Both the position numbers and the translations under genes were made by a program. From Thermomicrobiales bacterium (lineage in GTDB: Bacteria > Chloroflexota > Chloroflexia > Thermomicrobiales > UBA6265): a DNA stretch of 64,000 nt. The DNA is taken from NCBI GenBank assembly GCA_020432165.1, contig JAGQGU010000001.1:58655-122654 (forward strand), given 5' to 3'. Positions 47,631 through 64,000 of this stretch are shown piece after piece; position 1 is the stretch's first letter, and every line of letters starts with the position of its first letter. A model generated the notes under the pieces. That model ran no database searches. It had not been told where the DNA came from and saw only the letters and a list, made by a program, of their open reading frames with translations.

Positions 47631-48821
47631 CTACTTGTAGCCCAAAACATTACCAATGCGATCAAGCGAGTGCTGCAGAAGCTCATCGCTGGTAGCAAAG
47701 CTGAGGCGGAAATGCCCGGTGCAGCTATCGCCGAAGGCGGTGCCCGGCACCACGGCGACATGCGCGTCGTCCAACAGCTTCGTGCAGAGATCTTCGATCG
47801 ACATACCGGTCCCCCGACCATCAACATAGCCGTAGAATGCGCCCTCGATCGGATCGACATGTAGGCCATTGATGGCGTTGAGACCGTCTGTGATCAAAGC
47901 CCGGCGACGATCCCATGCGGCTACCATCTCGTGGATGATGTCCTGTGGGCCGCTGTAGGCCGCCACAGCACCCGCCATCGCGAAGGATGTCGCGCAGGTG
48001 ACCGAGTGCGATTGCAGCAGACTGATTTTCTTGATGAAGTTTGTTGGGCCAGCAACATAGCCCAGCCGCCAACCAGTCATGGCATATGCCTTGCTGAGGC
48101 CATTGAACGTCAGGGTGCGCTCGTGCATATCTGGCAATGTGGCGATGCTGATGTGGACGTTGTCTCCGAAGATGATCTTCTCATACATCTCATCCGTGAA
48201 GACGATGATATCGTGTGCCTTGGCGAAATCAGCGATAGTCGTAAGTTCGTCGATCGTGGCCACACGTCCGGTTGGGTTATTGGGAGAGTTCAGCAGAATA
48301 ATGCGCGTCTGCGGTGTGACGTACTCCTCCAGAATGTCGCGTGTGATCGCAAACTGGTTGTCCGGGCTCAGCGGTACACCGATGGCGCGGCCGCCAGCGA
48401 GTTCAACCATAGGCTTGTAACTCACCCAGGCTGGCTCCAGCAGCATCACATCTACACCCGGCTCCACAAAGGCCATAATCGCCTGAAAGATCGCGCTCTT
48501 GCCGCCCGGGGTGACGATGATATCCGTCTTCGGATTCACCGCAATTTCGTTGTCCTCATGCAGCTTTTTGGCGATCGCTTCCAGCAGCGCCGGTGTACCC
48601 GGGCTGGGAGCATAGTGAGTATCGCCAGCGTTCATCGCAGCGGCGGCGGCCTCGCGAATATGTGCGGGCGTGATGAAATCCGGATCGCCACCACCGAGAT
48701 CGATGACATCGATCCCTTCCGCCCGCAATTCGCGTGCGCGTTGGCTCACCGCCAACGTCGGCGAGGGCGCCACGCCGAGCACACGGCTGGCGAATAGTTC
48801 CTGAGACTTTTGCTCTGTCAT
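47631..48821 (-). CDS. Class I/II pyridoxal-phosphate aminotransferase (aspartate type)
   Basis: Fold-type I aminotransferase, 396 residues. IDLGGGDPDFITPAHI, THYAPSPGTPALLEAIAKKL, PNNPTGRVATIDEL, TDEMYEKIIF, and the PLP-lysine motif SKAYAMTGWRLGYVAGP, with RLSFATSDE near the C-terminus for the carboxylate-binding Arg. This is the aspartate/prephenate aminotransferase Ib group. ATG 48821 has GGTGAG upstream. It heads aminotransferase-ridA-greA-2H-like. Confidence 0.92.
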   Translation of the reverse strand: MTEQKSQELFASRVLGVAPSPTLAVSQRARELRAEGIDVIDLGGGDPDFITPAHIREAAAAAMNAGDTHYAPSPGTPALLEAIAKKLHEDNEIAVNPKTDIIVTPGGKSAIFQAIMAFVEPGVDVMLLEPAWVSYKPMVELAGGRAIGVPLSPDNQFAITRDILEEYVTPQTRIILLNSPNNPTGRVATIDELTTIADFAKAHDIIVFTDEMYEKIIFGDNVHISIATLPDMHERTLTFNGLSKAYAMTGWRLGYVAGPTNFIKKISLLQSHSVTCATSFAMAGAVAAYSGPQDIIHEMVAAWDRRRALITDGLNAINGLHVDPIEGAFYGYVDGRGTGMSIEDLCTKLLDDAHVAVVPGTAFGDSCTGHFRLSFATSDELLQHSLDRIGNVLGYK

Positions 48822-49090
48822 TGTGCTCACCACCATTTAACTGAACGCGACATATTGAGGACCAGATTGCGGGTATTGTACCCTGTTAACAGAGGCGCGG
48901 AATCGTAAATATTATGGCTATGCTGATCGCACGAAGCAGGAAAAATATCCTGTGCGAATCGACCAATCCGGATTGCTACCGGAACATTCGGAGGCTGAGC
49001 AGCGTTAGGTTTGCAATGGCAAATCAGTACGGATGTTGGCTGAGGAAGAGGACGAGAAATCAGCCTGGAGATAGTGAAGAGGAGAGTCTC
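48822..49090. other. Divergent upstream region
   Basis: 270 bases between the aminotransferase start and the first secreted-protein gene. It presumably holds two promoters but no convincing -35/-10 pair was fixed, and no repeat was seen. Confidence 0.3.
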
Positions 49091-51337
49091 ATGCAGACAA
49101 CAGGTATCGCGAAGCTTCGGCGCATGACCACGTTCCTGATGGTTGCGCTCATGCTTGCCAGCTCGATTGTTGTTCCACAACAGGCGAGTGCGGCGGAGAC
49201 AATCACGAGTCAGCTTACTGGCGTCAACATCACCTACGATTCCCCTTACCAACTCCAAACCGATATGGGCTATGCGGATGATACCAGCGAGATGATCGTC
49301 TTCGCCGGGTATGGCGATGTGCTGGCAATGGGATTTCTGCCTGCATCAATAGATCTCAATGGTGCTCGCGATCTGCTTCTGGAGTCACTTTTCACGGATG
49401 TGGAAGCGATCAATACCGTTGATCGCGGCGATTACACGGGCGTCTCCTACTCACTGGATATCGTCAATTTCGATGGTTCCGAGATGGGCGTCTTCTCGCT
49501 CTTTATGAACCAGCGATCACACGGTTTCGCTGAGTTCTATTTCTATATTGCCCCACCATCAATCTTTGCCAGCGGGATGGCAACTGTGCAGAGCGCAATC
49601 GCTGTCAACGGCACAGGTATCTTCCAGGGTGTTGATTCCACTGCGATGGGCAACATGGTCACCGCGAACGTTGGCTCTACCGGCGGTACTGAGGGCACTG
49701 ATCTTGGCGATATCGAGGATGATGATGTCACGCCGACAGAAGAGGTTGTTGCGGATAACGGTGATGCAGATGCCTATGTGGCAACAATTCAGGATCATCG
49801 TGATCAGTTCGCGGACTCCTGGCTCACATTCAACGGAGCGTTGAGCGATCTTGTCGACGCTGACACCGATGCGGCGAAGACTGAGGCGATTCAGAAGACC
49901 GCTACCGAGGCGCAGGCCTGGCAGGGATATCTGGCAGATGCGCAGTCACTTTCTGCACCTGCCGGGTATGAGGACGTTCAGGATGCCTATCTCAACTGGG
50001 CGGGATCAATCTCTGATCTTGGCGATATCTGGATGGGGTATCTCCAGGGTGACGGATCGACCTACGACCAGTTCACTGCTCAGCTGGAGGTGGTGAACGA
50101 TTCCTCGGACAGTCTTACGGACGCTCTGGTTGCTGCCGATGGTTCAACTAAGACCACGACACCAACCGAGGAAGCGACGAAGGAAACCACCACATCAACA
50201 AGTGCTGGCGATGCGGATGAGTATCTGGCAACCATCAATGATGAACGCACGGCCTTCACTGATTCATTCGTGACGTTCGCAACCGCGCTCACCGATTTCA
50301 CCAATGCAACATCTGATGCCGACAAGACTGCGGCATTGCAGACAACCGTCGATGAAGCAGCGACATGGCCGGGTTATCTGGATACCGCTCAATCTCTTAC
50401 GCCTCCACAGGGCTATGAGGATGTTCACGATGCGTACCTGAACTGGGCTGGTGCCGTGGCAGATTTGGGCGATATTTGGTTCCAGATTCTCAATAGCGAA
50501 GGTGCCACTTTGGATGACTTCAGTGCTGCCTCGGCGGCGGTTGATTCAGCATCTGCGGACCTTGATGATGCCATTGCCGATGCTCAGGGGTCGGCGAACG
50601 TTGCCACCGAGGAAGCGACGCAAGAGTCCAACACTGGCTCCAGCGGCACGCGCTCCACACGGACCACCGCTACTGAAGTCGCCACCGAGGAGGCAACCAC
50701 CACCACTATCGGCGGTACCCGCAGTACACGCTCCACGGGAACTGAGGAAGCCACCGAGGAGACGAATACGAGCGAGACCAAGGGTAGCTCTGGTAGAACG
50801 ACCAACTCTACGTCGTCTTCTCATTCCGAATGGGAGGGACCTGCTACAGGCGTGACCATTACCTGGGATGACGAGCACTTTGTTCTGGACGAATCGATCG
50901 ATCCTCAGACCAGTGATGCCTCAACCGGACGAGATTATCTTGAGCTCCTGATGGATGGCAATCCGGTGTCGGTCTATCTGGCCACCACGAACAATGGCGA
51001 TGCGTCCGCTACGATACAGAACCTTGCCGGAGACCAGGAAGCTGTCAACAGCGCATTTGGTGCTGACGCCGAACTGGCCCTCACGGAGATCGATGCGGAG
51101 AGTAGTGCTGCGCTCGTGCTTGTGGATCCGGACGCCAATATCTGGATGTATGTCCAGTTCACCTGTCTCAATACAGCGTGCGATACCATGGCCGCGCTTT
51201 TCGTCACCGCAGAGGGCGCTGACCTGACCGACATACTCGATGAGATGGAGCAAGGCATCACCGTGGATGGTGAGGCCGTGCCACTGGCGATCCCGTCCTC
51301 TGACATCGATGACGCAATCCTTGAGTCTGGTAACTGA
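49091..51337 (+). CDS. Large secreted protein: SELTG-type domains flanking two helical repeats
   Basis: Exported 748-residue protein. Signal peptide 1-34 (hydrophobic TTFLMVALMLASSIVV, cut near QASA). Region 36-180 is an SELTG-type domain (ITSQLTGVNITYDS ... SAIAVNGTG). Residues 224-348 and 374-498 are two copies of one helical repeat (A-W/T-W-x-GYL-x-x-AQSL, GYEDV-x-DAYLNWAG, DLGDIW). Residues 500-578 are a Ser/Thr/Glu linker with GTRSTR twice. Residues 580-731 form a second SELTG-like domain (WEGPATGVTITWDDEHFVLD ... GITVDGEAV). There is a Cys pair near 692-697. No catalytic motif or cell-wall anchor. First of a three-gene operon; 8 bases to the next. Confidence 0.7.
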   Translation: MQTTGIAKLRRMTTFLMVALMLASSIVVPQQASAAETITSQLTGVNITYDSPYQLQTDMGYADDTSEMIVFAGYGDVLAMGFLPASIDLNGARDLLLESLFTDVEAINTVDRGDYTGVSYSLDIVNFDGSEMGVFSLFMNQRSHGFAEFYFYIAPPSIFASGMATVQSAIAVNGTGIFQGVDSTAMGNMVTANVGSTGGTEGTDLGDIEDDDVTPTEEVVADNGDADAYVATIQDHRDQFADSWLTFNGALSDLVDADTDAAKTEAIQKTATEAQAWQGYLADAQSLSAPAGYEDVQDAYLNWAGSISDLGDIWMGYLQGDGSTYDQFTAQLEVVNDSSDSLTDALVAADGSTKTTTPTEEATKETTTSTSAGDADEYLATINDERTAFTDSFVTFATALTDFTNATSDADKTAALQTTVDEAATWPGYLDTAQSLTPPQGYEDVHDAYLNWAGAVADLGDIWFQILNSEGATLDDFSAASAAVDSASADLDDAIADAQGSANVATEEATQESNTGSSGTRSTRTTATEVATEEATTTTIGGTRSTRSTGTEEATEETNTSETKGSSGRTTNSTSSSHSEWEGPATGVTITWDDEHFVLDESIDPQTSDASTGRDYLELLMDGNPVSVYLATTNNGDASATIQNLAGDQEAVNSAFGADAELALTEIDAESSAALVLVDPDANIWMYVQFTCLNTACDTMAALFVTAEGADLTDILDEMEQGITVDGEAVPLAIPSSDIDDAILESGN

Positions 51338-51345
51338 CTCACGCT

Positions 51346-52434
51346 ATGCGCTCACTCAATCGTCGTACCGCACTGACCATGCTCGTATCCACTTTGACAG
51401 CATCAAAGTGGATACGAGCGGGCGCGGTTTCTCTCTACACATCGGAGCTCACTGGTTGGTCCGTTGAGGTGCGTGGGGATCACCTTCTGCTCGATCACAC
51501 GGTAGTCGAGGAATATCCTCACGGCACCGGTGAACGTTTCTATCTCTCGAGTATCAACGGATCGGGTAAAGCCGAAATCAGCTTCTTCGACGACACCGAT
51601 ACCCCAATCATCACTATTGATGTCCTGCTGGCGGAGTTTGAATCCCGCACCAGTCACCTTGAGGTCATCGAGCGAGGTAGTGTCGCCTCGACGACGTATG
51701 CGCTTGTCAGCTTCAGGGCGCAACAGACGGATGGCTATTACTACATTGAGGTGGCACAGGACGTTACCGGCAATGTCGATATGCTGCAGGGTTTCTCCGG
51801 TGCCAGCACCGAATTCCTGACCGAGCTTGGGTTCGCCAGGGACGATGTGACCATAGATGGTGCACCTTTTCTGGGAGCACCCGTGGTCGATCTCGCCGCC
51901 GTTGTCTCCGCCCATCAGCAGCGGCTCGCTGAGCTGGCCGCGACACCGGTGGTGAACCTCGTCGCTTTCCGTCTCTATCCTGCGGAACTCCGCGTAACAT
52001 CGCCCGTTACCGTTTACGATCACTACACCAGCGATGTTTTGGAGACGGTCTACTTCCATTCGTCCTCCGGTGCAGCCAATGGACTCGTTGGCTTCCTGCG
52101 GGATGATAGCCCCACCGCCAGGGATGTCCTCACCACCATCGTGAGCAATCAACCCCAGGGAGAACAGCCCCCGGAAGAGCTTCGGCTGGATGTATCAGAC
52201 GACGATTCTGCGCTCGGTCTCTACCTTGTACCCGGGAGCGCTGGCGATATGGCGATGCTCATTCGGGTTACGCGTGCTGATCCGGATTTCTGGCGTATCG
52301 AATCCATTGCTGCGCCGCCGGATGATATGGTGGGCGAGTGCGCCGAGCTCACTGCGGGAACGCAAATCGACGGTGTACCGTTATTCGATAGAGTAGATTT
52401 CGTTCAGATTCTGCAATCGCTCAGTGGTAGTTGA
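51346..52434 (+). CDS. Secreted protein, two SELTG-type domains; leader carries inverted duplication
   Basis: A 362-residue relative of the next gene. Leader: NRRTALTMLVSTLTASKWIRAGA, with a twin-arginine but an h-region cut short by K-W-I-R, which comes from a perfect inverted duplication in the DNA (51381-51419). Domain 1 about 32-180 (YTSELTGWSVEVRGDHLLLD ... EVAQDVTGNVDMLQGF ... VTIDGAPF) and a second similar region about 195-350 ending TQIDGVPLF. Whether it is still exported is uncertain. Function unknown. 25 bases separate it from the next gene. Confidence 0.65.
   Translation: MRSLNRRTALTMLVSTLTASKWIRAGAVSLYTSELTGWSVEVRGDHLLLDHTVVEEYPHGTGERFYLSSINGSGKAEISFFDDTDTPIITIDVLLAEFESRTSHLEVIERGSVASTTYALVSFRAQQTDGYYYIEVAQDVTGNVDMLQGFSGASTEFLTELGFARDDVTIDGAPFLGAPVVDLAAVVSAHQQRLAELAATPVVNLVAFRLYPAELRVTSPVTVYDHYTSDVLETVYFHSSSGAANGLVGFLRDDSPTARDVLTTIVSNQPQGEQPPEELRLDVSDDDSALGLYLVPGSAGDMAMLIRVTRADPDFWRIESIAAPPDDMVGECAELTAGTQIDGVPLFDRVDFVQILQSLSGS
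51381..51419. repeat. Perfect 17-bp inverted duplication within a coding sequence
   Basis: GCTCGTATCCACTTTGA (51381-51397) and its exact reverse complement (51403-51419), separated by CAGCA. The frame stays open across it and encodes part of the leader peptide. Confidence 0.95.
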
Positions 52435-52459
52435 CATCACATCGAGAACTGGAGCAACC

Positions 52460-53788
52460 ATGAAGTCATTCATTCGTCCGTTAGCCACCGTTGTCATGGC
52501 GGCATCCCTGGCGGTTTCCGCCGGTAGCGCCTTTGCCCAGACGCAGGATTTTGAACCGGAATTCTATGAATCTCAGCTGTCCGGTTTTGAGATAAATGTG
52601 TCTGGTCCCACGTTCGAAATCACCGCCGCCGATTTGCAGCACTATTCCAACGGTGATGGTGAGGTCGTTACGATCGACTCTGAACTCTCCAGTGCCGAAG
52701 TAAGCTTCTTCGATGACGACGATACCCCGGACGAATCGATCGATGCCTACCTGGGCAGCCTGGAGCAGGTGGCCGAGAACTATGTCGTCGTTGACCGGGA
52801 TACGGATGGGGATGTTTCCTATGCGCTCGCCAGCTTCGAGTATCAGGGTGTGCCGTTCATCTACTACGTTCAGGTAACCCAGGATGTGGTTGGCAATGTC
52901 GACTTCTTCGAATCCTTCCTCTCGACCACAGACAACTTCGGGAGCGAGATGGGTATTGCCCAGGATGAAATCGATATAGATGGCAGTGGTTTTGCTGAGA
53001 ATGTCGATGCCGATGAGCTGGTCGATATGGCTGCCAATGGCGAGAGTTCCACCACAACCGAGGATTCTACCGCCACCGATGTCAGCGAAGAGGATGAGAG
53101 TGCGCTTGATGCTCATCTGGATGACGTCGCTAATAGTGAGACCGCCAGCGATCCGCGTGAAGGCGCTCGCCTGGGCAGCAACACCAACGCGGACGAAAGT
53201 ACCCCTGTTACTGAAGAGACAGATGACGATACACCGGTTAGCGATATCGTCGGTACACTGACCGATTCGAGTTGGCAGGGACCGATCTTTGAGCATGAGA
53301 TCGGTTGGGATGACAACTGGGTAGTCGATCCGTCTATCGATGGAGCCATCGTCTCTGATGAAGACGAACAGATCGAGAGCCTGCTGATTACCAGCGATTC
53401 TTACCGGACCACGCCGTTTATCTACATTGCCGTGCACGATGCTGGCGGCAATACCCCGGCAGACTATCTGGAGTATTGGTCGTCGGATGAGTATCTGCAG
53501 GAGCAAGTGCTGGGTGCGGATGGAGGCGATGCTGAAATTCTTACCACCCGCAGCCGTAGTAGCGGCGTGGCGATCGTGATCCAGTACACCGATGACAATG
53601 AGACGTACATCATGGTCCGACAGATGGTCGAACTTGAGGACGGCACACTCATGGTGCTAGTCATCGATACCTCGGTCGATGAGATCAGCCAGGTCTACAG
53701 CGACGCGCACGATGGCATCACCTTCGATGGCGATGAGCTTCCGCAGATTCTCACCCAGTCGCAGCTCGACCGCGTTCTGGGCGAATAA
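52460..53788 (+). CDS. Secreted protein with two SELTG-type domains and acidic linker
   Basis: A 442-residue exported protein. Sec-type signal about 1-26 (LATVVMAASLAVSAGSAFAQ). Domain 1 about 36-185 (YESQLSGFEINVSGPTFEI ... VQVTQDVVGNVDFFESF ... IDIDGSGF), an acidic Ser/Thr/Glu linker about 190-262, and domain 2 about 270-430 (WQGPIFEHEIGWDDNWVVDP ... GITFDGDEL). The W-x-GP...WDD start is shared with the last domain of the 49091 protein. Very acidic, no Cys, no anchor. Last gene of the three-gene operon; a terminator follows. Confidence 0.7.
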   Translation: MKSFIRPLATVVMAASLAVSAGSAFAQTQDFEPEFYESQLSGFEINVSGPTFEITAADLQHYSNGDGEVVTIDSELSSAEVSFFDDDDTPDESIDAYLGSLEQVAENYVVVDRDTDGDVSYALASFEYQGVPFIYYVQVTQDVVGNVDFFESFLSTTDNFGSEMGIAQDEIDIDGSGFAENVDADELVDMAANGESSTTTEDSTATDVSEEDESALDAHLDDVANSETASDPREGARLGSNTNADESTPVTEETDDDTPVSDIVGTLTDSSWQGPIFEHEIGWDDNWVVDPSIDGAIVSDEDEQIESLLITSDSYRTTPFIYIAVHDAGGNTPADYLEYWSSDEYLQEQVLGADGGDAEILTTRSRSSGVAIVIQYTDDNETYIMVRQMVELEDGTLMVLVIDTSVDEISQVYSDAHDGITFDGDELPQILTQSQLDRVLGE

Positions 53789-53819
53789 CCTAGCTCATTT
53801 CCGAAGAGGAGTTATCTTG

Positions 53820-53860
53820 AATCCTGTCCATGCCCGTCTTTGTGGTATGGGCAGGATTTC
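53820..53860. terminator. Terminator between secreted-protein operon and GntR gene
   Basis: A 15-bp stem with two G-T pairs (53820-53834 with 53844-53858, closing AATCCTG/CAGGATT) and a 9-base loop, followed by TTC. It lies between convergent genes. Confidence 0.6.
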
Positions 53861-53885
53861 GTGTGAGATGAAACCGTCTCCATCC

Positions 53886-54656
53886 TCACACCTCTGGATC
53901 GAGCGATGGCTCAGACGTGCCGGAAACCAGATGTAACCGCATTTGATCAGTAATCAGACGAGTGCACATGAACACCATCGGCTCGTTATGTTGATCCATG
54001 AACGCAGTGTCCAGTTTCATGATGGTTGATCTGGGCGCCACGTTGAGCAGGGCAACATCCTGGTCATTCGCCTCCGCAACCTGAATCCAGTGATCGGATG
54101 ATCCTGTGGTGAGTCCGTATCGATCCAGGAGTGTTTGCCTCACCGAATTATTTATGAGACCTTTGGCTGCCAGATCGGGGAATCGCATCGGCGAGAGATG
54201 GTTCTGGATCCATGCGAATGGAGCGTGATCGACGGTGATCAGTCGTCGGATCACGACATGTCCTTCGCAGTTCTCCGTACCCAGAAACGTTCTTGCCTCA
54301 TCTGGTACATCCGTGACCAAATCCAGATCCAGAGTCTCGATTTGGGAGTCATGACCCGCGTTGCGCAAACTTGCTGTGATATCCACCATCATGCCAATGG
54401 TGGGGGAGAGCGTTTCCGGTACACGTTTCACAAATGTACCGGAGGGCCGATGGCGAACAACGATGCGATCTTTCTCCAACTCGGTCAGCGCCTGGCGTAC
54501 AGTTACCCGGCTGACCTCATAGGCATCCGCCAGTTCGATCTCGCTTGGCAGCCGATCACCAATACCCCATTCCTGACGTGCGATTCTCCGCTGCAAACTC
54601 AACGCAATCTGGTGATAGATCGGTAATTTCCCATTTCGATCAATGAGTGTTGACAA
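53886..54656 (-). CDS. GntR family regulator, HutC/UTRA subfamily (second copy)
   Basis: Winged-helix (LPSEIELADAYEVSRVTVRQALTELEKDRIVVRHRPSGTFV) plus UTRA effector domain, 256 residues from TTG 54656, which follows GGAGAG by 6 bases; ATG 54689 or 54704 would add up to 16 residues. Paralogue of the regulator at 13783. It is divergent from a TPR protein and a peptide-type transporter, which it probably represses. Effector unknown. Confidence 0.88.
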   Translation of the reverse strand: MSTLIDRNGKLPIYHQIALSLQRRIARQEWGIGDRLPSEIELADAYEVSRVTVRQALTELEKDRIVVRHRPSGTFVKRVPETLSPTIGMMVDITASLRNAGHDSQIETLDLDLVTDVPDEARTFLGTENCEGHVVIRRLITVDHAPFAWIQNHLSPMRFPDLAAKGLINNSVRQTLLDRYGLTTGSSDHWIQVAEANDQDVALLNVAPRSTIMKLDTAFMDQHNEPMVFMCTRLITDQMRLHLVSGTSEPSLDPEV

Positions 54657-54757
54657 GGCTCGCTCTCCAAGAGTGACCAATCTGAACATGTTGCATGCAT
54701 ACAAGAATACTCGCCTACACCTTCAAGTGTTGTCCGATCAATTCCTGACACCGCCTA

Positions 54758-54810
54758 TTGACAAAATTTGACCATTGAATAGTCTATTGTCTATATGTTG
54801 ATACTATAGT
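54758..54810. promoter_or_regulatory. Promoter/operator region of the second transporter module
   Basis: TTGACA (54758) and TTGACC (54768-54773) lie ahead of TATATG (54792-54797; 18 bases from the second). The octamer GTCTATAT (54789-54796) is identical to a half-site of the operator at 13525-13550, and ACTATAGT (54803-54810) is a short palindrome beside it. Likely site of action of the adjacent GntR protein. Confidence 0.45.
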
Positions 54811-54949
54811 ACAAAGGATTATCGATGGAATACCGGAGTGAGGGCGAATGCTGGCTATAGGTCGGCAACAAGCAGGGGAGGTGAAACCACAGTTCGTCGC
54901 CAGGTTACGTGTGCTGGATATGTCCCATTGAACCAAAAGGAGTAGTCTC

Positions 54950-55780
54950 TTGTCTCTCGATCAATACATCAATCTCTCCAAAAAGACCTTTGTCGATGGT
55001 ATGGCTTCATATGAGGGTCAGGTTCGTCTCTATCCCTTGGCCGATGTCAGTTCAGCATCGGTTGATGAGCTCGATGCCGAAATCGAGAAATCGCCGAACG
55101 ATGCCGAGCTCTATCTCAAGAAGGGCATTGCACTCAGCCGCGAATCGCTGCATCACCAGGAGGCTATCGACGTTTTCTCCAAGGGTCTGCTGCTTGATCC
55201 GTTCAATGCCATGCTCTATCGCTGGCGTGGTCACAAGCACCTGAATGTGCGCGAGTTCAATGCTGGTCGTTCCGATCTCGAGCTCTCTTCCCGTCTCGAT
55301 CCCTCGAACTGGGATACCTGGTACCACCTTGGGCTGGGCAACTACCTCTGTGGCGATTTCGAACGCGCGGAGAAGGCCTATCGCGAGTGCTGGAACATGA
55401 CCGATACCGATGACAAGCGCGTCGCTATCGCCGATTGGCTCTACATGACGCTGATGCGCCTCGGTCGTAAAGATGATGCCCTGGCCGTGCTGGACTTCGT
55501 CACCCCGGAGATCGACGCCGGACCGAATGAGGCCTATTTCGCCCGTCTGTTGATGTACAAGGGCATTGGTAGCCCGGACGATCTGCTCGAAGGCGCCGAC
55601 ATCGCCGATGTCAACTTTGTCACGCTCGGCTATGGCCTGGGCAACCACTTCTACTGCGCCGGTGATATTGATCGCGCGGTCGCGATTTGGTCGGATGTAC
55701 TGAAGGGCAGTTACTGGTCCGCATTCGGCTGCATTGCTTCTGAGGTTGAGTTGCGTCGTTTGGGACGCATGCCCGAGTAA
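54950..55780 (+). CDS. TPR-repeat cytoplasmic protein heading the transporter operon
   Basis: A 276-residue protein built of tetratricopeptide-like repeats: DAELYLKKGIALSRESLHHQEAIDVFSKGLLLDPFNAMLYRWRGHKHLNV, then LDPSNWDTWYHLGLGNYLCGDFERAEKAYREC, and a last copy near NHFYCAGDIDRAVAIWSDVL. No signal or catalytic residues, so a protein-interaction or regulatory role. TTG 54950 follows AAAAGGAG. It lies 50 bases ahead of the substrate-binding protein and is in the operon, which is unusual for a peptide transporter. Confidence 0.75.
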   Translation: MSLDQYINLSKKTFVDGMASYEGQVRLYPLADVSSASVDELDAEIEKSPNDAELYLKKGIALSRESLHHQEAIDVFSKGLLLDPFNAMLYRWRGHKHLNVREFNAGRSDLELSSRLDPSNWDTWYHLGLGNYLCGDFERAEKAYRECWNMTDTDDKRVAIADWLYMTLMRLGRKDDALAVLDFVTPEIDAGPNEAYFARLLMYKGIGSPDDLLEGADIADVNFVTLGYGLGNHFYCAGDIDRAVAIWSDVLKGSYWSAFGCIASEVELRRLGRMPE

Positions 55781-63524: not shown

Positions 63525-64000
63525 ATGAACCGTTTCTGGAAATCTACAACCATCGCAGTCGCAACCACATTGTTGGTTGCCATGCCGTGGCTCTCAGCTT
63601 CGGCACAACCAGCAGCGAGTGATACCGTTTTTGTTTCGGAACTCACCGGCGAGGAAGTTAACCTCGGTAATAGTGGCGCCTTCGAGTTTATGCCAGATGT
63701 ATATAGCGTCACGGAAAGCGGAGACTATGCAGAGGAATACATCTGGTACACCGGAGGCTACTCCAACTTCGAGGTGATCCTGGTGCAGGGGCCAACCGAT
63801 GCCACGGAGTATATGGATATCACCGATAGCAATATGGGAACGTTCTATGACGCGTGGGACGTGATCGATAGCCAGGATGATGGCGATACCTCGTGGTTCC
63901 TCGGTGAAGCCAACTACCAGGGTACTGATCTGCTTGTGTACTTTGAGTATCAGACCGATGTCTTCGGCGATGTCGACCTTGCCTATATGCAGTTCGCAGA
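63525..64000 (+). CDS. Secreted SELTG-type protein, 3' truncated by window edge
   Basis: Open to the window end (158 codons seen). Signal peptide about 1-28: FWKSTTIAVATTLLVAMPWL, cut near ASAQ. The domain opens FVSELTGEEVNLGNSGAFEF and holds ANYQGTDLLVYFEYQTDVFG followed by DVDLAYMQF, parallel to YVQVTQDVVGNVDFFESF of the 52460 protein. ATG 63525 follows GCGAGGA. Role unknown; fifth member of this family in the window. Confidence 0.65.
   Translation, partial: MNRFWKSTTIAVATTLLVAMPWLSASAQPAASDTVFVSELTGEEVNLGNSGAFEFMPDVYSVTESGDYAEEYIWYTGGYSNFEVILVQGPTDATEYMDITDSNMGTFYDAWDVIDSQDDGDTSWFLGEANYQGTDLLVYFEYQTDVFGDVDLAYMQFA

Follow-up and report, generated by a model that had tools for sequence, protein, structure and literature searches.

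The window, i.e., the whole stretch of 64,000 nucleotides that was analysed, originates from a Thermomicrobiales bacterium and harbours a cluster of genes for secreted-looking proteins at positions 48914 to 53788, two of which are paralogous to each other. All three genes considered here are located on the forward strand. The central one (51346 to 52434) encodes a protein of 362 amino acids with a signal-peptide-like leader. Its putative start codon at 51346 is the earliest ATG in this frame and yields a signal-peptide-like n-region; alternative in-frame starts are ATG 51379 and TTG 51394, and no clear ribosome-binding site was seen by eye in front of 51346. The upstream gene is listed as an 807-aa open reading frame (ORF) at 48914 to 51337. 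This listed start is probably placed too far 5', and ATG 49091, which is preceded by the purine-rich sequence GAAGAGGAGAG and opens a signal-peptide-like leader, is the likelier one. The downstream gene, a paralogue of the central gene, occupies positions 52424 to 53788 as counted from its listed start, and its leader, which has an uncharged core, begins at ATG 52460. Searches against Pfam and NCBIfam returned no family at E-values up to 1 for the central gene product or for either neighbour.

Relatives of the central gene product were matched in four of 61 genomes by protein search, all of one genus and including the genome studied here. By means of an alignment search, matches were obtained in eight of 32 family genomes, namely all four of the genus and four outside it, the latter being weak (E-values of 1.5e-7 or worse). 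A separate contig search recovered no relatives with the single protein and three loci with the alignment. The orthologues of genomes G003 and G001 share 47% and 38% identity over the matched part (44% and 35% across the ORF), and in both genomes the gene adjoins homologues of the window neighbours, in G001 with a 209-aa ORF in between. Genome G002 holds only a more distant homologue. Furthermore, a weak relative of the family (E-values of 5.6e-6 and 2.9e-4) is located at window positions 63561 to 64000 and beyond (C76:122215-123426). Genome G003 possesses two close copies of the cluster, one on contig C82 (L004) and one on contig C61 (L007, L010, L012). In the latter, the matches for the counterpart of the central gene are split between two separate open frames, that of the downstream paralogue contains an in-frame TGA, and this copy looks decayed or misassembled as judged from its sequence.

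A Perfect Inverted Repeat within the Leader Codons

The leader of the central gene contains a perfect inverted duplication at positions 51381 to 51419, as claimed in the original prediction. Arm 1 (GCTCGTATCCACTTTGA, 51381 to 51397, forward strand) is separated by 43 nt from the stop codon of the upstream gene, which ends at 51337. It comprises the third base of the codon for Met12, the codons CTC-GTA-TCC-ACT-TTG (L-V-S-T-L) and a single base of the T codon thereafter. The 5-nt spacer CAGCA (51398 to 51402) would form the loop and makes up most of the subsequent codons ACA-GCA (T-A). Arm 2 (TCAAAGTGGATACGAGC, 51403 to 51419), the exact reverse complement of arm 1, encodes S-K-W-I-R (TCA-AAG-TGG-ATA-CGA) and supplies two bases of the next A codon (GCG). 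In total, the 17+5+17 arrangement spans codons 12 to 25 of the 362-codon ORF, corresponding to +36 to +74 relative to ATG 51346. The claim that the reading frame had survived also holds, as the ORF from 51346 to 52434 is open to its end, and the gene is thus not visibly broken.

The pair is the sole inverted repeat with arms of at least 12 bp that the repeat finder reported in 50801 to 52400. Apart from its two arms, the 17-mer has no further copy with up to two mismatches in the 105-contig assembly and none elsewhere in the window with up to three mismatches; in viral contigs, no exact arm pair with a spacer of 0–30 nt was found. Being single-copy in the assembly and without an exact counterpart in the viral contigs, the arm pair does not belong to a repeat family on this evidence, and a dispersed repeat or mobile hairpin element was rejected on these grounds.

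Inverted Repeats in the Genome Sample

In order to place the repeat in a wider context, perfect inverted repeats with arms of at least 10 bp and spacers of at most 30 nt were recorded in a sample of 505,423 of the 3,216,338 genome bases. This sample consisted of the entire contig C76 (347,742 bases, including the window) and 20 other contigs, each represented by its first 20 kb or, where shorter, by its whole length. For gene calling, a simple script based on codon usage was employed instead of a standard gene finder, giving 419 genes with 437,235 bases (86.5% coding). Of the 74 repeats recorded altogether, 21 were located wholly within predicted genes, and the other 53 were situated between genes or across gene edges. 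At least 13 bp of arm length was reached by 24 repeats. All except two of these, the 17-bp leader pair and one 14-bp pair, were intergenic or crossed gene edges (22 of 24). Long hairpins as such are hence not rare in the sample, and nearly all of them are located outside predicted genes. With its 17-bp arms, the leader pair is the longest of the in-gene repeats across the 419 predicted genes.

Its length exceeds what is expected by chance for in-gene sequence. In 40 codon shuffles of the 437,235 gene bases, the maximum arm was 15 bp, seen once, and 17 bp never occurred; the mean per replicate was 0.3 repeats with arms of at least 13 bp and 0.05 with arms of at least 15 bp. The earlier statement that a 17-bp pair is beyond chance was thereby borne out. 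Shorter in-gene arms are common (21 repeats observed vs. 15.4 expected from the shuffles at 10 bp or more), which could speak for leader codons that became complementary by accident; given that none of the shuffles exceeded 15 bp, this explanation is extremely improbable. At arms of at least 11 bp, 11 in-gene repeats were observed vs. 3.7 expected, so that part of the signal may be a feature of these genes in general.

The prevalence of long repeats at intergenic or gene-edge positions is what intrinsic terminators would produce, and the leader repeat could accordingly be such a terminator, or the hairpin of a mobile element, crossed by an ORF by chance. This is very unlikely. No T-run follows the stem, and a scan of positions 51200 to 51700 detected neither terminator-like nor promoter-like sites, for which reasons an intrinsic terminator was rejected; a mobile-element hairpin is at odds with the single copy in the assembly. 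Moreover, the codons preceding the repeat (M-R-S-L-N-R-R) resemble a genuine n-region, and GTG 51469, the next in-frame start past the hairpin, would cut off the conserved E-L residues and the first strand.

Predicted Structure of the Transcript

The original prediction had also suggested that a structure might arise near the 5' end of the mRNA, and folding predictions agree with this. The 39-mer alone folds with -27.7 kcal/mol as RNA and -19.1 kcal/mol as DNA, and in a context of 124 nt the hairpin reaches a z-score of -4.32, with none of 200 shuffles folding as well. A stem starting 36 nt into an ORF is beyond the usual initiation footprint. Provided that 51346 is the start, a strong block of initiation is therefore unlikely, and the stable mRNA hairpin is probably tolerated.

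The hairpin might also have been selected as such, stabilising or separating the transcript of the upstream cistron or tuning translation, with the leader codons being subordinate. This explanation is compatible with the high predicted stability and with the start of the stem 44 nt past the end of the upstream stop codon; were ATG 51379 used, the third base of the start codon would moreover be part of the stem. The position at +36 to +74 is compatible with it, too. Inverted repeats are reported in PMC6060812 to be enriched in E. coli approximately 25–60 bp past the start codon, where they perhaps act as riboregulators, and a regulatory role of the leader hairpin is possible in the light of that report. 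Like these E. coli repeats, the leader repeat is located a few tens of bp past the start codon, but its 17-bp arm is far above the 5-bp arm length from which the repeats in PMC6060812 were screened. Against selection for the hairpin stand the lack of a terminator-like site in the scan and the result of a comparison with Rfam, in which the region 48000 to 55000 gave no match at gathering scores; a known structured RNA was rejected on the same basis. Furthermore, the matching leaders of both readable orthologues (G003 and G001), the leader of the G002 homologue and the starts of three paralogues, including the downstream one, all proved free of inverted repeats of at least 8 bp. A selected hairpin is thus considered rather unlikely. 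Within the seven stretches searched in this comparison, the sole matches were an 80% pair in the portion of the G003 orthologue that encodes the mature protein and, in G001, an 8-bp pair where an upstream gene ends.

Comparison of Leaders among Orthologues and Paralogues

An alignment of orthologous 5' ends, proposed along with the original prediction, was feasible at the protein level for two readable leaders, those of G003 and G001, neither of which contains the hairpin, whereas no DNA match extended across the leader. With a query of 601 bases (51200 to 51800), G001 and G002 gave no DNA match, and the match in G003 was confined to query bases 531 to 597, well inside the gene. In the protein alignment, all three orthologues share residues E34-L35 (as numbered in the window protein) without variation. 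Counted from the likely start up to the conserved E, the leader has 33 residues in the window gene product, compared with 38 in G003 and 46 in G001, taking GTG at L004:1393 and ATG at L005:1393 as the putative starts of the latter two. Up to the conserved E-L, the window leader is accordingly shorter by five and 13 residues, respectively. As it is no longer than the leaders of the two orthologues, arm 2 takes the place of other residues and does not represent a simple gain of four. The earlier claim that the repeat adds K-W-I-R is thus not supported.

Eight leaders were compared in total, comprising those of the window gene, the two orthologues, the three paralogues, the G002 homologue and the upstream gene. 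Opposite arm 2, other leaders feature uncharged residues such as SSSVVTAQ and PALAVQ, and K-W-I-R at this position was found in none of the other seven. The longest stretch free of D, E, K, R and H amounts to 13 residues in the window leader vs. 18–24 in the other seven, and the best 8-residue hydropathy is 1.91 vs. 2.35–3.50 (Kyte-Doolittle scale). The core of the window leader is therefore the shortest and least hydrophobic of the eight. Since arm 1 encodes the expected leader core and arm 2 the odd K-W-I-R, arm 2 is likely the copied arm and arm 1 likely the original one, as far as can be deduced from the sequence. Codon usage was also considered as a pointer to the original arm and proved uninformative, the geometric means being 0.41 and 0.40; arm 2 contains the rare codon ATA, which accounts for 5% of Ile codons.

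Proposed Origin by Template Switching

Based on these results, it is quite probable that a lineage-specific template switch during replication overwrote the remainder of the leader with a reverse-complement copy of arm 1, and the fold-back origin put forward in the original prediction is retained as the best reading of the 17-bp pair. The reverse-complement copy adjoins its presumed source, as is characteristic of template switching. In the proposed course of events, a short-range switch, or the completion of a pre-existing short quasi-palindrome, would have copied arm 1 as its reverse complement just 3' of itself, across the second half of the signal-peptide codons, before replication resumed on the original template with the frame kept. 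TGA and TCA, the three inner bases on each side of the loop, could have primed the fold-back, which is speculative. We infer from the sequence that arm 1 was the source, that a single event was involved and that it followed this mechanism.

An artefact of library preparation or assembly was considered as well, namely a fold-back chimera among the reads from which a metagenome-assembled genome was built. The characteristics of the assembly (105 contigs, 98.31% completeness, 3.34% contamination) fit a metagenome assembly, and a second genome of the species was not found in the searches. A simple fold-back chimera carries on in reverse complement, but here the sequence returns to the codons of the domain in frame and the remaining ORF is open; moreover, the host contig C76 is 347,742 bases long. 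An artefact is for these reasons distinctly unlikely. Both alternatives, selection for an mRNA hairpin and an error in the assembly, are less likely than a template switch.

The 14-bp pair (C76:43526-43559, L020:3526-3559), a perfect repeat with a 6-nt spacer, was evaluated as a parallel case of template switching. It is located in a gene whose product we take to be a luciferase-like monooxygenase. The region was matched in three of the four genus genomes, including the one studied here, with 73% identity in G003 and 66% in G001, and both of these relatives exhibit an imperfect pair at the site. Arm 1 has three positions, and arm 2 has two, at which G003 and G001 agree with each other and differ from this genome. 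Changes on both arms do not support a single clean switch, and the pair was rejected as a parallel case; its sequence is in line with a protein-constrained quasi-palindrome that was homogenised slowly or repeatedly. By analogy, the 17-bp leader repeat may also have grown from an imperfect pair.

The leader repeat looks like an example of a known mutation type and not like a new system. Template switches are described in PMC8794818 as making perfect stems in one event, and those reported for yeast coding genes in PMC8604942 replace up to five adjacent residues; the latter source cites E. coli thyA and rpsL for mutations of this kind. With the template-switch or quasi-palindrome corrections of Ripley's model, as presented in PMC8604942, the leader repeat shares the perfect repeat within a gene, the short spacer and the preserved frame, and several neighbouring residues are affected as in the cases given there. 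The yeast cases were inferred relative to a parental node, whereas the leader repeat is known here without a parent sequence. Similarly, it resembles the hairpin-creating switches of PMC8794818 in its new perfect stem and in the reverse-complement copy beside the source, but the cases compared are situated in genes for microRNA and rRNA and were followed along trees, whereas the leader repeat involves protein codons without a traced ancestor. Perfect inverted repeats within protein-coding sequence are also known from the mitochondrial palindromes of Nematomorpha (PMC6649704). There, the repeats are numerous, reach up to 284 bp and encode conserved residues on both arms, in contrast to a single 17-bp pair whose arm 2 is not conserved as protein. 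Among the titles and abstract openings surveyed, no bacterial signal peptide altered by template switching was found, which does not prove that none has been described. By itself, the leader repeat is one example from a lineage known here from metagenome-type assemblies only. If confirmed in close relatives, it would provide a clear bacterial case of an export signal rewritten in one step. As template switching alters several adjacent residues and signal peptides tolerate change, such footprints could survive in leaders.

Possible Consequences for Protein Export

It is possible that arm 2 disabled export of the protein, as the original prediction had considered. The n-region of the leader is still basic, and 13 uncharged residues as well as an A-G-A site are retained, from which it follows that export may be weakened and not lost. 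With two basic residues behind an export core that is shorter and less hydrophobic, export via the Sec pathway would likely be weaker.

A further scenario, which is highly doubtful, is that one fold-back event re-aimed the protein from Sec to Tat, or to a retained membrane anchor, while the adjacent paralogue stayed with Sec. The shortened core, with K and R just after it, would then act behind a twin-arginine n-region. Tat signal peptides carry a motif resembling S/T-R-R-x-F-L-K, and compared with this consensus, the N-R-R-T-A-L-T of the leader represents only a partial twin-arginine motif. The genome encodes TatC.
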